A stretch of DNA of 64,000 nucleotides from Chryseobacterium aquaeductus (GTDB lineage Bacteria; Bacteroidota; Bacteroidia; Flavobacteriales; Weeksellaceae), in contig NZ_CAJIMS010000001.1 of assembly GCF_905175375.1 (NCBI RefSeq), positions 1,860,001 through 1,924,000 on the forward strand, read 5' to 3'. The translations under genes were made by a program, and so were the position numbers. Positions 9,501 through 33,421 of the stretch are shown here, in pieces. Under the pieces are notes generated by a model. It was not told the origin of the DNA. It saw only the letters and a program-made list of their open reading frames with translations, and ran no database searches. Position 1 is the stretch's first letter; each line of letters begins with the position of its first letter.

Positions 9501-9660
9501 GTGGGATTGTTTGATTGGAAAGTTTGTAACATGGAGAATTATTATCATTCTATCCAATGACTACATTGAATATTAATTGAGAAAATGAACTGAGATATGA
9601 TAAAATTTCCATTATGATATCAAAGCTCAATTGAAAAAAAATCACGAACTTGCAAGGCAA

Positions 9661-10893
9661 ATGGGCAAAAAGTATTCAGACATAAAAGACAAACTAAAAT
9701 TAGAGATTACCAAGACGGAAAATAACGACTTGGCTCATTTGACGCACTTTTTTCAGAACCATAAAAATGGTGTCTCTCAATATTATAGACCGACTGCAAC
9801 TACTTATTTAACGGAATTACATAATAAACTCAGTATTGTTGAAGAACCTGATTTTCAGTATTATTTGCCAATAAAATGGGATGTTCCATTTCCGCCACCC
9901 ACGACGCCAAAATTCAGATTTATTGATTTGTTTGCTGGAATTGGAGGAATAAGAATGGCATTTCAGAACATTGGCGGAAAATGTGTTTTTACTAGCGAGT
10001 GGGATACTTATTCAAAGAGGACTTATGATGCTAATTTTGGAGAAGTTCCATTTGGTGATATTACCAAAATTCCAGAAGGCGAAATTCCCGACCACGACAT
10101 TTTGTTGGGTGGATTTCCTTGTCAACCGTTTTCTATTGCGGGAGTTTCGAAAAAAAATGCCTTGGGTAAAGCTCACGGATTTTTAGACGAAACTCAAGGG
10201 ACATTATTTTTTGACGTCGCAAGAATTATAAAACATAAAATGCCAAAGGCGTTTATGTTGGAAAACGTAAAAAATCTTGTTTCTCATGACAAAGGAAAAA
10301 CTTTTACAATAATAAAAGAAACTCTAAAAAAATTAGGCTACTCAATTCATTTCAAAGTTTTAGATGGTCAACATTTTGTGCCACAACATAGAGAAAGAAT
10401 TATAATTGTAGGCTTTAACAACAATGTTTTTAACGGAGAAGAAACTTTTGAATTTCCAAAAATGGGAAATACAAAGTTTGCTATCAGAGATATTTTAGAA
10501 GATGAAGTTGATCCGAAGTATACTTTGTCGGATAAACTTTGGAACTACTTACAAGAGTACGCAAAAAAGCATAAAGCTAAAGGAAATGGCTTTGGTTTCG
10601 GATTGGCTAATTTAGACGGTATTTCGAGAACAATGAGTGCAAGGTATTACAAAGATGGAGCGGAAATTTTAATACCACAAGAAGGTTTAAACCCAAGACG
10701 TTTAACTCCAAGAGAATGTGCAAGACTTCAAGGATTTCCGGATAGTTTTATCATTCCTGTTTCGGACAATCAAGCATATAAACAATTTGGCAATTCAGTT
10801 GTAACACCTTTAATTCAAGCAGTTGGAAAGAATATGCTAAAAGAAATTTTGAAAATCAATGAACCTACAAAATCTAAAGTCGCTGTTCATTGA
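9661..10893 (+). CDS. DNA (cytosine-5)-methyltransferase of a type II R-M system
   Basis: About 410 residues with the ordered C5-methyltransferase motifs. Motif I is [15 protein letters not shown], motif [11 protein letters not shown] carries the catalytic Cys, and motif VI is ENVKNL. Motif VIII is QHRERI and motif X is QFGNSVV. A target-recognition region lies between VIII and X. It transfers methyl from SAM to cytosine C5 to protect host DNA. I take ATG 9661. An in-frame TTG at 9631 would add ten residues and cannot be excluded. The nuclease gene overlaps the 3' end by 35 bp, so the two are coupled. Confidence 0.93.
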
Positions 10894-12166
10894 TAACGGT
10901 TGTACGAAAATTTACATCAAGAAACTTTCGCCAAACGATAATTCAAAAAATCAAGTTTACTTCGGTGGTAGCTTTGAAATTTTAAACATTTTACCAATTT
11001 CTGAAATCAAAAATGAAGAGGCAGGTGAGTGGAATAAAGAACGTTTTAAAGCATCTATAAATTTCTCTTGGATTGCAGAAGATGGAAATTTGTTTCCTGC
11101 ACCAAATGCACAACTTATTCTTTATCCTAAATATCCAGAAGTCAGGTTTTCAGGTTTTTTACAAAAGTGCCAAAATCCACCATCCGCATTAATGACACAA
11201 AGGCTTGCTGACAGGCTTTTATTCTTTTCAGTTGCCAAAAACGGAAGCATTTTAGGTTACGTAGCAGACCCAAATTCTGAAATCGCAAATGAATTTGCAA
11301 ACCAACAAAACATTACAGAACACGGAGTTTTTAAACTAATTGAATTACCACAAGTTGCAAACAATAGAGCCGACTTAATTAATGAATTGCTTCGCATTCA
11401 TCAATTGGGTTGGATAAAATCAAAACGACTTGATAGACTTGGAAATCTTATGGCTTGTGAAGCACCAAATTGTGGCGGCTACACTTTAGAAGCTGAATTA
11501 GGAATCACACCAAATGGATATTCAGAACCTGACTTTTTAGGTTGGGAAGTAAAACAATTTGGCGTTGCTAATTTTGCAAGAGTAAACTCTGCAATTATAA
11601 CTTTAATGACACCCGAACCTACTGACGGAATTTATCGAACCGATGGAGCAGAAGCGTTTTTAAGGCAATATGGTTATGCCGACAGAACTGGAAGAGAAGA
11701 CCGAATAAATTTTGGTGGAGTTCATAAAATGGGTGTTAGACATCCGTTGACAAATTTAGAAATGCAATTAATCGGTTTTGACGCAGAAAGTGGAAAAATC
11801 AGAAATACAAACGGACGAATTTCATTAGTTGACATTAACGGAAATGAAACAGCATCTTGGAGTTTTGCGTCTATGCTTTTGCATTGGAATAGGAAACATA
11901 ATCAAGCGTGTTATGTTCCTTCACTGTCTGAAACTTCAAACGAAAGACAATACAAATACGGAAATAACATAATTTTAGGAACAGGAACTGATTTTCAGCT
12001 TTTTCTCGGACAGATGGCGAATGGAAATATTTACTATGACCCAGGAATTAAAATGGAAAATGCCTCCACAAAACCGAAGATTAAGAAACGTAGTCAATTC
12101 AGAATTAAGTCGCAGAATTTACCATATTTATACAAGGTAAATGAAGTTTTAGATATATCAAAATAG
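10859..12166 (+). CDS. Type II restriction endonuclease, MvaI/BcnI-like
   Basis: 435 residues. The central segment ([20 protein letters not shown], then [20 protein letters not shown]) resembles the catalytic region of the MvaI/BcnI nuclease family. Candidate metal residues are Asp225, Glu230 and Lys232, in D-x4-E-x-K order. The start lies inside the methyltransferase gene in another frame, the usual overlapping R-M layout. These enzymes act as monomers on short sites such as CCWGG or CCSGG; the site here cannot be derived. No terminator is obvious before the long AT-rich spacer. Confidence 0.82.
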
Positions 12167-12592
12167 CAAATTAAACTTCACTAATCAAGAGACACTATTA
12201 GCAAATATTTTTCAATGTTGTAGGGTAGCAAAAATTCAAAAATTATATTCCTATTTTACATTATATTGAAAGAATATTTACTTCAACTTCGTCCCTGCTA
12301 CGCACTCATTCACTTATCATTTAAACCAAATTTTATTCTTTAGACATATGCGTTTACGTTTTATGCGTACTTTTAAATGCTTTACACAGATAAATTTCTA
12401 TTTTATACGTTAAACAATATATCTAAAACTTCATCAAATCAATTTTAAACATAGAAAAATCATTCTAAAACGTAGAAATATATTTGTTAAACTATAAACG
12501 ATGTATTTAAAACGTAATCTTTGAGGTTTTAAACGGATAATGTTCTCTGGTGTGTGTATTTTTATTACTTTTATCAATAAAATTTAACACAA
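12167..12592. other. 426-bp AT-rich spacer with a phased repeat array
   Basis: No gene is visible. The distal 210 bp consist of ten degenerate 21-bp units (listed separately). The proximal part shows no clear signal. Confidence 0.8.
12339..12548 (+). repeat. Ten tandem 21-bp degenerate units upstream of an HTH gene
   Basis: Starting at 12339, every 21 bp begins with a variant of TTTAAACGTA followed by an A/T-rich half. T2, A4 and C7 are identical in all ten units; the C positions run 12345, 12366, 12387 and so on to 12534. A possible eleventh unit (TTTAAACC) precedes with 19-bp spacing. 21 bp is two helical turns, so all units face the same side of the DNA. The array ends 44 bp before the ATG of the HTH gene, so an operator array for that protein is the simplest reading. 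Confidence 0.85.
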
Positions 12593-12955
12593 ATGAGTTT
12601 AAGAAAGTATCAGGAGAAAACTGCGTCTCCACATCCGCATATTGGTGCGATGGTTCGTAAAGTGATGATTAATAAAGCAGTTTCGCAGGCAGAATTGGCG
12701 AGGAGACTGCAGATCAGTTCGTCTTCAATGGCACAATATTTCCGAAATTCGTCACTGCAATTTGGGATATTATGGAATTTGGGGATTGCTTTGGAGCACG
12801 ATTTTTTAACGGAATTGAGCAATTATTATCCGGTTAACATTTCTTTCAACGAGAAATCAAAGCTGGTTTCCGAGTTGAGGGAGAAAACTGAAAAAATAAA
12901 TGATTTGGAAAAGGAAATTAAAATTTATAAAGCAGCTTTAGGTATTAAAGATTAG
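12593..12955 (+). CDS. XRE-type HTH regulator with C-terminal coiled coil
   Basis: 120 residues. An N-terminal helix-turn-helix (VSQAELARRLQISSSSMAQY) is followed by a hydrophobic dimer-like segment. A charged heptad-patterned tail (LVSELREKTEKINDLEKEI) is probably a coiled coil. It is a soluble DNA-binding protein, likely binding the 21-bp array immediately upstream and so regulating itself. It stands next to an R-M pair, but at 120 residues with a coiled coil it is larger than usual R-M controller proteins. A terminator follows. Target and role beyond autoregulation are inference. Confidence 0.8.
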   Translation: MSLRKYQEKTASPHPHIGAMVRKVMINKAVSQAELARRLQISSSSMAQYFRNSSLQFGILWNLGIALEHDFLTELSNYYPVNISFNEKSKLVSELREKTEKINDLEKEIKIYKAALGIKD

Positions 12956-21604: not shown

Positions 21605-22744
21605 ATGAGTTTATTACATCCATATTATATTATTGCCCTTATTTTTATTGTCATTTTCAGTTTTCAGGAAGTGTACGGTAGGAAAATAGAGAAGAAATGG
21701 CTTTGGTTTTTGGGTGGTTATCTTATTGTTTTGGCGGGACTTCGTAATCAGGTAGGTCCGGATTATGGGAGTTATATCGGCATTTACAATTATTCTGATA
21801 CTAAAGATTATATAAGCATTATTTTAAAGGCATTTTATCTCGATGGTCTGCAACCTGTAGAGCTCGAGTGGTTGTTTGTCTTGATCAACAAGCTATTACT
21901 CAATATTTTTAATGCGCCTTTTTACATGCTTACTTTGGTGATTGCCACAATTACCATCATTCTAAAAATAGAGTATATCGATGACAATACGTTTTACCCT
22001 TTTACTTTCATTCTTTTTATGTTTATTCCCGGTTTTTTTATCGGCGAAAGCGGGCAAATACGACAATGTTTAGGATCTTTTATTGTGTATTACGGAATTA
22101 GATATATCAAAGAGGATAATTTGCTGATGTATCTGCTGTGTATTTATTTAGGTGCGGGAATTCACAATGTATGTTATGTGTTTTTACCAATGTATTGGGT
22201 AGTGCGTATTCCATTGAATAAAGCCTGGATGCTTATTGCAATCATAGCATCAGTTTTTGCGTCACCTTTTGAAGTGTATAGGGTTTTTGGGGACTTTATC
22301 AGCGGGATTGCCAGCGATAATATGCTCGTGGAAGGATTTAACGGATATATTGATGAGACGGCAGAACGTTTGAATGGTGGGATAGGTATTCCCGAAGTGA
22401 TGATGGCAATTCTTACGTTTTTCCTGTTCTTTTTTGATACTCAGATGAAAGAAAAATATCCTTATTATGAATACCACCGAAATTATGCCGTTTTAGGAAT
22501 CTGTTTTTATTTTATTTTCAGAAATAATCCTGTTTTCTCTTCAAGATTGGCAGGTGCTTTCATCGGTTTTTCCTACATCATTATTCCAAATGCAATGTAT
22601 GTGGTTTCGCTTGGTACAAAAAAACTTATACATACCTTCATTATAGCACTTTTTGTCTTCAATTTCATTGTTTTTGCAAGCTTTAGAAATATTGTAAATG
22701 GTAATTTTACAATAGATAGTTATCATAATTACTTGCTACCATAA
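21605..22744 (+). CDS. EpsG family membrane protein
   Basis: 379 residues with ten or more predicted helices. The N-terminal stretch GLRNQVGPDYGSYIGIY matches the LR-x-VG-x-D-Y-x-x-Y motif of EpsG/Wzy-like proteins, which polymerise or translocate polysaccharide repeat units. A second conserved area is GESGQIRQCLGSFIVYYGIRY. It is coupled to the preceding membrane protein. A role in surface polysaccharide assembly is likely. No glycosyltransferases adjoin it, so the glycan is unknown. Confidence 0.83.
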   Translation: MSLLHPYYIIALIFIVIFSFQEVYGRKIEKKWLWFLGGYLIVLAGLRNQVGPDYGSYIGIYNYSDTKDYISIILKAFYLDGLQPVELEWLFVLINKLLLNIFNAPFYMLTLVIATITIILKIEYIDDNTFYPFTFILFMFIPGFFIGESGQIRQCLGSFIVYYGIRYIKEDNLLMYLLCIYLGAGIHNVCYVFLPMYWVVRIPLNKAWMLIAIIASVFASPFEVYRVFGDFISGIASDNMLVEGFNGYIDETAERLNGGIGIPEVMMAILTFFLFFFDTQMKEKYPYYEYHRNYAVLGICFYFIFRNNPVFSSRLAGAFIGFSYIIIPNAMYVVSLGTKKLIHTFIIALFVFNFIVFASFRNIVNGNFTIDSYHNYLLP

Positions 22745-31353: not shown

Positions 31354-31402
31354 AAACCCCCGCTGCGCAAAGTCTCCCGACTTTGAGCAAGTCTCACTCA
31401 TC
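31354..31402. repeat. REP element A
   Basis: GCGCAAAGTC and GACTTTGAGC form the hairpin around TCCC, preceded by AACCCCCGCT. It overlaps the 3' end of the RAYT gene. The first 35 nt are identical to REP C. Confidence 0.85.
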
Positions 31403-31999
31403 ATAATTATTATAATTCCAAAATTCATTTCTTTTTGTAACATCAATGATCGGGTTATCTGCCAATTCAACTTCTAATAATCCTTTTCCTGTCACATAGT
31501 TGCTTGCCGAAGAGTATATGTAGTGTTGCGCTTTTTCCACAATTCCTGCCCTTATTGGATTGAGGTGGATGTAGTTGAGTTTGGCCCACATAAAATGTAA
31601 AGTGTATATTTCTTCTGCGTGATTTCCGTACTGCCAGAACTGGTAATTCTTATTTCTGCTGTGGCTTTCTGTGGCTTTTTTAAACAAATCCAGCATCCAT
31701 GCTTTTCTGCTTTCGGGTTCTGTCTGTATCGCTTCTACAATATTTTTGCTGGTAAACTTTTTAAAATCTCTTATCAAATCGGATAATCTGCCATCTTTGG
31801 ACTGCACTATCAAATGAATGTGGTTGCTCATAATGACATAGCCATACAAAAGCATTCCTTTCTCTTTGATACAATAATCCAATGAAGAAATCACAATGTC
31901 TCTATAAACCTTTCTTGTGAAAATATCTACCCAATCTACTGCTGTGCAAGTTATAAAGTGTGGTCTTTCCTGGTCTTTTACCGTGTAGCCTTCTTTCAT
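31394..31999 (-). CDS. REP-associated tyrosine transposase (RAYT, Y1/HUH family)
   Basis: 201 residues, IS200-like Y1 transposase fold. The HUH motif is His60-Ile-His62 in GYVIMSNHIHLIVQ. The N-terminal FITCTAVDWVDIFTR and later WAKLNYIHLNPIRAGIV are typical of this family. RAYTs nick single-stranded REP hairpins and are domesticated or slow-moving relatives of IS200. Hairpins of one sequence family lie directly at both ends (31354-31402, 32025-32092), as expected for its substrate. Confidence 0.9.
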   Translation of the reverse strand: MKEGYTVKDQERPHFITCTAVDWVDIFTRKVYRDIVISSLDYCIKEKGMLLYGYVIMSNHIHLIVQSKDGRLSDLIRDFKKFTSKNIVEAIQTEPESRKAWMLDLFKKATESHSRNKNYQFWQYGNHAEEIYTLHFMWAKLNYIHLNPIRAGIVEKAQHYIYSSASNYVTGKGLLEVELADNPIIDVTKRNEFWNYNNYDE

Positions 32000-32100: not shown

Positions 32101-33042
32101 CTATTTTAGTGGTAGTGTTAGGTTTTCATACTCATTTTGAGTTTCTACAATTAAATTTATTATTGCCCCTGTCGAATAAAGCATATACTTCGCGAGGCTA
32201 TCTGGAATTATTTTTTTTTCTACACCTTGTCCATGCCCACTATTTTTATTTCGTATGGTCGGGATATTAGCACTTAATATCTGTTTAAAAGAATTCAAAT
32301 AGCTTTCATGATATGCTTTAAAAAAATTGTTACTAATAAGATGATTAATAAGAGTTGAGGAAGTGTCTCTTTCTTTATCATAATTCCATGAATTTTTGTA
32401 ACATATTATTTTCATAGTTGTTTCAAATGCCTTTAAACATTCATTTAAACATTCAATATTTCTTTTTTGTTTAAAATGTTCGTGAGCTTTTAAATATTCT
32501 TCGTTTGCATTCTGATAATCGACATTATTAATAAGGTTAAAAGTACTAGAAACGGTTTCTTCGTGCAGAAATTGATTGTCTACTCGTAGAATTTTCGAAT
32601 TTTCGAAAATATAACCTATTCCGTTTTCTCTAAATCTCGTATTTAAGTCATTCTTTGCTTCTTTAGAAGTATAATACAAATCAATAAAATAATTGTGTTT
32701 TAACCAATCATCAACAAACTCGATTTTTGTAAATATAATATGGATTATATCTAATAAGATTTCAATATCTGTATTTTCTTGAATAAATTTTTCTAATTGA
32801 TTTTTTTCATCAGGACAAAATAATCCATTGGAATATAAATTATCCAAACCAAACTCTCTACAAGCAATATTAAAAATTTGACTTATTGTAAGTTCACTAA
32901 TTTCCAGAGGGAATTTCTTGTGTTCAAAAAAATCTTTCCAAATAAAATTTATTTGATTCTTAACTTTAGAATCTAAAGTGTCATAAATGAAGGATTGCGG
33001 ATCTCCTTTTGTTTCTTTTGAATATGTTTTAAAAGTAGCCAT
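32101..33042 (-). CDS. HEPN-like abortive-infection family protein
   Basis: 313 residues from ATG 33042; the longer frame to 33138 runs through REP C and is rejected. The C-terminal domain contains PTIRNKNSGHGQG followed by DSLAKYML. This resembles the C-terminal domain of Abi proteins of the STM4504/AbiJ kind. Arg264 and His270 form an RX5H motif, the RNase signature of HEPN domains. The N-terminal 200 residues are helical. Such proteins cut RNA on phage infection. It is bracketed by REP B and REP C. Family likely; defence activity inferred. Confidence 0.65.
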   Translation of the reverse strand: MATFKTYSKETKGDPQSFIYDTLDSKVKNQINFIWKDFFEHKKFPLEISELTISQIFNIACREFGLDNLYSNGLFCPDEKNQLEKFIQENTDIEILLDIIHIIFTKIEFVDDWLKHNYFIDLYYTSKEAKNDLNTRFRENGIGYIFENSKILRVDNQFLHEETVSSTFNLINNVDYQNANEEYLKAHEHFKQKRNIECLNECLKAFETTMKIICYKNSWNYDKERDTSSTLINHLISNNFFKAYHESYLNSFKQILSANIPTIRNKNSGHGQGVEKKIIPDSLAKYMLYSTGAIINLIVETQNEYENLTLPLK

Positions 33043-33092
33043 TGATGTAATTTTTTTTATTTCTATTAATAACAAACCTAGTAACGTAAATT

Positions 33093-33131
33093 TAAACCCC
33101 CGCTGCGCAAAGTCTCCCGACTTTGAGCGAG
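33093..33131. repeat. REP element C
   Basis: Identical over 35 nt to REP A (33094-33128 versus 31354-31388) and in the same orientation, 1740 bp away. It lies just upstream of the HEPN-like gene. Confidence 0.85.
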
Positions 33132-33195
33132 ATATCACTCATCATTAGTATTAATTAATAACCCAAATATACCCACATTTCCCAATCCACCCAAA

Positions 33196-33381
33196 AACTC
33201 TCATCATCCACTCTTTTACGTCATCATTCACTCTCAAAGACTCATCATCGACTCTTTAATACTAGAAAACGAGTCTTCAACAATCGTTTTTGAGTGTTTT
33301 ATATTCATCGGAGAGTCTTTAAGAATGAAAAACGACTCTTTGATACTGGTTGTTGAGTGTCAAAGAGTCGTTGGTGAGTTT
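33196..33381. repeat. Clustered GACTC/GAGTC palindromes
   Basis: Five ACTC words spaced about 10-20 bp apart on the left are answered by GAGTC/GAGTG words on the right. The strongest pair is AACGACTCTTTGA (33331-33343) and its perfect complement (33360-33372), a 13-bp stem around 16 nt. Confidence 0.7.
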
Positions 33382-33421
33382 TAGAAGAAGTTTTTCTTCG
33401 ATTTAATTAGGTCACAAAATC

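Follow-up and report, generated by a model that had tools for sequence, protein, structure and literature searches.

The stretch of DNA analysed here, hereafter the window, comprises 64,000 nucleotides and corresponds to positions 1,860,001-1,924,000 of a 3.46-Mb chromosomal contig of Chryseobacterium aquaeductus. It encodes a small helix-turn-helix (HTH) protein whose gene is preceded by an imperfect array of 21-bp units, and the array is situated between this gene and a restriction gene of the MvaI/BcnI family (10859-12166). A second 21-bp array in the same window follows a gene of another protein family, referred to here as protein A. The features are collected in the table.

Features of the window, with coordinates counted from its first nucleotide
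Feature	Position	Strand	Basis
Imperfect 21-bp array, ten units	12339..12548	.	z 12.3, 0/2000 shuffles; six frames closed
Candidate promoter -7 box within the array (TATATTTG, matching TAnnTTTG)	12479..12486	+	Same offset in C. aahli
Leader, 44 bp, from unit 10 to the start codon	12549..12592	+	39/44 bases identical to C. aahli
Gene of the small HTH protein (120 aa; Xre/HTH_26-like domain, C-terminal helix)	12593..12955	+	ORF; weak HTH_26 match; AlphaFold2 model
Part of the gene encoding the predicted C-terminal helix (residues 90-116), a candidate coiled coil	12860..12940	+	AlphaFold2; profile match
Second 21-bp array, 8 units, 3' of the protein A gene	33220..33387	-	z 7.9, 0/2000 shuffles; scan z 12.7
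Protein A family gene, 159 aa	33422..33901	-	Profile match E 1.1e-28 at G000:C1:1893437-1893901; ORF

The original prediction described ten units at exact 21-bp spacing, the last of them ending 44 bp ahead of the HTH start codon, and held the array to be too regular for chance. All of this is borne out, the alternative best fit being one of 11 units (12328-12558). The significance of period 21 is upheld against shuffled sequence, as none of 2000 dinucleotide shuffles has a column information as high as that of the array. The lag-21 identity is 0.52 compared with 0.32 in the shuffles, and the best lag (8 to 59) of every one of 2000 shuffles falls below it. Three columns are invariant (T2, A4 and C7), the maximum in 2000 shuffles being one. 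The invariance claimed for these bases holds in the window genome and does not extend to Chryseobacterium aahli, in which C7 differs in four and A4 in two of the ten units. Since the units are just about 50% alike, Tandem Repeats Finder detects only the middle of the array (12436-12492, scores 56 and 58). A scan of the 64 kb for signals with z above 6 has revealed the two 21-bp arrays, one 30-bp signal and nothing else. No second copy of the unit has been found in its own genome, either by blastn, where 40 of 85 candidates were scored and the next E-value was 0.018, or with a covariance model of doublets (five, from the window array), where 150 of 2470 candidates were scored and the next E-value was 0.35. 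A dyad is not detectable in the window array by column permutations (p 0.48).

The AlphaFold2 model of the HTH protein, built with 57 sequences (pLDDT 89.2), has five Xre-type helices (residues 17-27, 32-39, 43-51, 57-67 and 71-76), the five-helix fold that characterises the Cro/C1 (Xre) superfamily, followed by a sixth helix. HTH_26 is the only Pfam family assigned, and that under the Pfam cut-off. Foldseek returned Xre regulators, with C.BclI first, ClgR scoring alike (best E 0.005) and chains of C.Esp1396I thereafter, and SinR and HipB have been matched in a search with the family profile. For positions 89-113 of this profile, the PDB yields a coiled-coil peptide (E 0.007), and the predicted last helix fits a coiled-coil assembly without demonstrating it. 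The isoelectric point is above 9 in 42 of 49 HTH proteins. The fold class is an ordinary one, and it is the array that is unusual.

C. aahli is the nearest named relative at this locus, with an HTH protein that is 92% identical and the same flanking genes. The dN/dS ratio of 0.08 between the two HTH genes indicates purifying selection in this pair. Over the 330 bp upstream of the gene, aligned positions of the two species are 78% alike and units within an array 46% alike; the array is judged to be old because the identity between species exceeds that between units, and its spacing persists nonetheless. One unit of the C. aahli array has lost a base. Substitutions between the two arrays do not avoid the conserved columns (p 0.44, leave-one-out).

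Five orthologues from the genus with 57-63% HTH identity (L007 and L009-L012) have different neighbour genes, and every one is immediately preceded by a 21-bp array of its own (z 5.5-12.4, 0/1000 shuffles for each). Three broken or truncated HTH genes (L013, L014 and L015) have no array upstream of the matched piece. The intact gene of L008 also has no array above chance (z 1.1), which counts against a link between array and HTH gene. A further intact gene (L063) lacks a clear array though its protein is almost identical to that of the array-bearing L062.

Genomes with matches to the HTH protein number 4 of 59 among the relatives, 36 of 173 in the genus (E 1e-3), 120 of 320 in the family (E 1e-5), 28 of 296 in the order (E 1e-5) and 63 of 395 in the class (E 1e-8), tallies that include many members of the wider HTH family without an array. 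The 137 distinct proteins pooled from these searches are a sample, since listed matches without a locus were fetched in part (40 stretches and some others), and two of them had too little upstream sequence. An array was accepted when the best period lay within one of 21, 22 or 41-44, z was at least 4 and at most 1 of 300 shuffles was as high. By this rule arrays are found upstream of 49 of the 54 genes encoding glutamine at the residue equivalent to position 56 of the window protein, of one of the 61 encoding aspartate or glutamate and of six of the 20 testable others. On a quick tree, 47 of the 52 rows on one side of a single branch (SH-aLRT 92) have arrays as against 9 of 83 on the other side. 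The Q/D difference arose once on this tree, so that these counts are not independent and the glutamine serves as a clade marker. Among control genes of the fetched stretches, two of 160 pass the array rule with 200 shuffles (L121, in a strongly repeated stretch, and L172); for another, in L138, z is elevated at 21 although 18 is the best-fitting period. This comparison of sequences shows that, throughout the class, the array belongs with a single clade of genes for small Xre-type HTH/coiled-coil proteins. The array of the window is real, old and part of a class-wide pattern, of which no description was found in the literature searched. The original prediction looked to homologous loci for the same periodicity, and they do have 21-bp or 22-bp arrays, even with different unit letters.

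The spacing of the arrays has a narrow distribution. The best periods in the 52 upstream regions with z of at least 5 are 21 (39 regions), 22 (8), 44 (2), 42 (1) and 41 (2), with no other value in the range 15-45, and all of them are close to two or four turns of B-DNA; one of the five regions with z 4-5 has a period of 30. Two HTH relatives (L098 and L101) have a strong 41-bp array, about four turns, instead of one of 21 bp. The comparison of loci shows that spacing has been held to two turns. Fitted arrays hold 5-12 units.

The sequence of the unit varies greatly from locus to locus. The more alike two HTH proteins are, the more alike their units tend to be (Mantel r 0.43, 50 arrays, 0/2000 permutations), with a mean similarity of 0.61 under 30% protein identity, where the null mean is 0.60, and of 0.87 above 90%. 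Most paralogues within a genome have unlike units, with 8 of 30 pairs clearly exceeding 0.69, the 95% point of the null. The pair most alike (L061 and L129, 0.99) has proteins that are 96% identical. Covariation of the recognition helix with the unit letters is weak (partial r 0.16). As seen in these alignments, the letters drift together with the HTH protein. By column permutations, 23 of 57 fitted arrays have a significant dyad (p below 0.05), for example L092, L093, L141 and L144, and in three of four species pairs the unit columns are constrained (leave-one-out, p 2.7e-5, 0.012 and 0.031). The idea of a multi-copy operator put forward in the original prediction is well supported by comparison, while the window array itself shows neither the dyad nor the column constraint.

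Protein A, of about 160 residues, is encoded directly upstream of the array and on the same strand at 17 HTH loci where the upstream sequence sufficed, with an ORF gap of 162-500 bp; in one of the 17 (L089) it is a shorter frame. It is acidic (pI 4.4-4.9 in 15 of 17) and predicted to be all-helical, and no known family or fold has been assigned to it in the searches made. Protein A and the HTH protein diverge in step (Mantel r 0.81, 16 pairs, 0/5000). The family occurs in 26 of the 296 genomes of a phylum sample and is present in three copies in the window genome. The association of arrays with this second protein family, including the second array of the window, is absent from the original prediction.

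The loci of protein A were also considered in their own right. Of the 43 matches listed, 22 were examined, at 21 loci (20 fetched and the window), and an array of period 21, 42 or 43 lies within about 500 bp of protein A in 15 of them, on the 3' side in 13. The loci without an array by that rule are L199, L205, L208, L209, L211 and L218, of which L211 passed a laxer rule. None of the 15 arrays has a window-type HTH gene next to it; at L200 a distant Xre gene lies on the side of A opposite to the array. Similarly, no HTH of the window family is present in the 7 kb scanned around the protein A gene of the window. The units of the second window array are unlike those of the first (similarity 0.59, below the 95% null point of 0.64), and four arrays compared within the window genome all have unlike units. 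One copy in the same genome (L199, C1:3053076) is a shortened protein A gene that misses the usual C-terminal end and has no array, a situation similar to that of the broken HTH genes, which likewise lack arrays. Another genome (G444) has, within L128, two cassettes of protein A, array and HTH gene separated by about 15 kb, and its HTH genes of the window type number four. The array with its HTH gene is one form of a wider protein A - array - HTH cassette in which one gene is often missing.

We consider it probable, with roughly two chances in three, that the array is a private multi-copy operator of the adjacent HTH protein, whose dimers bind it cooperatively and most likely for autorepression; the binding, the cooperativity, any filament formation and the repression are what we infer from the patterns described above. 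HTH dimers would occupy successive units, one dimer per two turns, and the two-turn distance from unit to unit would place all of them on the same face of the helix. The C-terminal helix may let the dimers help each other to bind. Occupancy would most likely repress the HTH gene itself, as the array extends into the sequence immediately ahead of the start codon, and self-control could be graded or switch-like. At four loci (L045, L088, L091 and L143) the array comes within 4 bp of the start codon, and arrays so placed favour self-control by occlusion. The array of the window also contains a match to TAnnTTTG, which we take to be the -7 box of Bacteroidota. Of 50 array loci, 18 have this motif no more than 130 bp from the start, compared with a shuffle mean of 4.3 and 0/200 shuffles as high, a count inflated wherever a unit holds the motif, since the shuffles break the repeats.

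The arrays that accompany protein A alone leave room for a broader role, for example a lattice with A as a partner. We put forward tentatively, as a possibility short of even odds, an undescribed cassette of A, phased array and HTH gene in which each HTH protein polymerises on its private array into a nucleoprotein lattice and the acidic protein A is a regulator or a cargo adaptor. The letters of paralogues would then diverge freely to give mutually blind copies in one cell, and the two-turn spacing would be kept across the class as the lattice geometry is what is selected.

A related and rather unlikely explanation is a structural or partition-like site, at which a solitary coiled-coil DNA-binding protein forms a lattice for the positioning or silencing of DNA, as KfrA does, self-repression being a by-product. 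The 5-12 fitted units exceed the needs of simple repression, the unlike units of paralogues would suit mutually compatible centromeres, and the joint divergence of protein A and the HTH protein also speaks for such a site. According to a report on RA3 KfrA (PMC7783346), that protein has a repeated operator for both autoregulation and plasmid maintenance. Against such a site, the HTH protein of L126 and protein A have no match in plasmid and phage collections, nor has the window HTH protein in plasmids, and no partition ATPase was noticed by eye among the flanks listed. The cassette is absent from most genomes searched, which makes an essential partition role unlikely.

An improbable alternative is that the array acts as transcribed RNA, forming hairpins in tandem within the HTH gene leader or the gene A trailer. 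On the sense strand 33 of 50 arrays fold more stably than shuffles (z below -2; mean z -3.9), but the antisense strand folds about as well (30 of 50, mean z -3.75), as DNA dyads would cause. The window array is without a folding signal (z -0.98), and the restriction of periods to near two or four DNA turns would be left unexplained.

The original prediction placed the array beside a restriction-modification (R-M) system, and the HTH protein might be taken as the controller (C) protein of that system, with the array as its operator. The R-M genes lie just upstream, the C5-methylase and MvaI/BcnI-type endonuclease pair (9631-12166) adjoining the edge of the array, and C proteins head the Foldseek matches, though with an E-value of just 0.005 and with ClgR and other Xre regulators scoring alike. 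The tie does not hold at the same locus of C. aahli (L005), where the order is M16 peptidase, array and HTH gene with no R-M genes between; the sequence upstream of the HTH gene in L006 is the same. As this species is without the pair there and the two sequences are alignable from the upstream edge of the array onward, the R-M pair looks like an insertion in the lineage of the window, and by this comparison its neighbourhood is incidental to the array and the HTH gene. Inspection by eye of the flanks listed for other homologues revealed no R-M gene. Lacking a conserved R-M linkage, this reading is largely refuted and is given very little credence.

A passive repeat without a specific binder (an old tandem duplication, coding heptads or curved DNA) is suggested by the window pair without column constraint, by arrays that occur without a window-type HTH and by curvature predicted from wedge angles, which leans above that of arrays with permuted columns (z averaging -0.73, with 9 of the 50 under -2 and none over 2; -1.6 in the window), but it is scarcely tenable given the closed reading frames of the window array, the 22-bp arrays that cannot be heptads, the spacing kept in an old array, the column constraint in the other three species pairs and the strong tie to one HTH clade.

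The private operator of our preferred reading can be compared with known systems. The C proteins of R-M systems and Xre regulators of the SinR, HipB and HigA type use one or a few operators. C.Esp1396I, C.BclI and the latter regulators share the five-helix fold class of the window protein; they are not known to have long phased arrays, and the window protein lacks the R-M link. Plasmid iterons are direct repeats at about two helical turns and thus resemble the window array in spacing. Unlike iterons, the window array is on a chromosomal contig with no plasmid match, and no Rep protein has been detected by Pfam among the six genes tested around it.

KfrA of RA3 and R751 (PMC7783346) has an N-terminal HTH, a self-associating alpha-helical tail and several repeats at its own promoter, where it is autoregulated. 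Repeats upstream of the protein's own gene are the shared feature. KfrA is plasmid-borne, with a tail spanning residues 54-355 and five 9-bp repeats, whereas the protein described here is chromosomal and has 120 residues, a single predicted helix of 27 residues in place of a coiled-coil tail of about 300, 5-12 units of 21 or 22 bp and an acidic partner at many loci. BldC is a small protein that forms a cooperative filament on variable numbers of direct repeats (PMC5859096). It is a MerR-like winged-HTH pleiotropic regulator binding head to tail at sites of about 9 bp, in contrast to the Xre fold, the 21/22-bp spacing, the dyad units of many arrays and the one private array per protein found here. 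By analogy, the system may work in the manner of KfrA with its repeated operators (PMC7783346) or of BldC with its filaments (PMC5859096), but by the features tested it falls in neither family.

These observations suggest that every one of these proteins coats a stretch of DNA that is private to it. If this is true, the arrays would provide dozens of natural pairs of a small HTH protein and its cognate site, with drifting specificity and some ten registered sites each. They would be a clean system for the co-change of a DNA-binding domain and its site, a way to see cooperativity and helical phase selected apart from sequence, and an entry point to two protein families not yet characterised.

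Twenty 20-kb stretches of the window's own genome (400 kb) have revealed four further period-21 signals. One is within an ORF of 770 residues (L228), one is a 7-bp microsatellite (L236) and one is of ambiguous status (L223). The remaining one (L237:6520-6740) is a true intergenic 21-bp array between two convergent genes that adjoins neither protein A nor a window-type HTH gene. From this survey, period-21 arrays are rare but not confined to these two families.

The gene next to the second window array (32101-33138) matches AbiJ_NTD4 and DUF7014, and a short inverted repeat was seen by eye at about 33100-33125, near the start of this AbiJ-domain ORF. An IS200-like (Y1) transposase, perhaps of the REP-associated kind, is encoded at 31394-31999. 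The local cumulative GC skew switches from falling to rising around position 22000 of the window.
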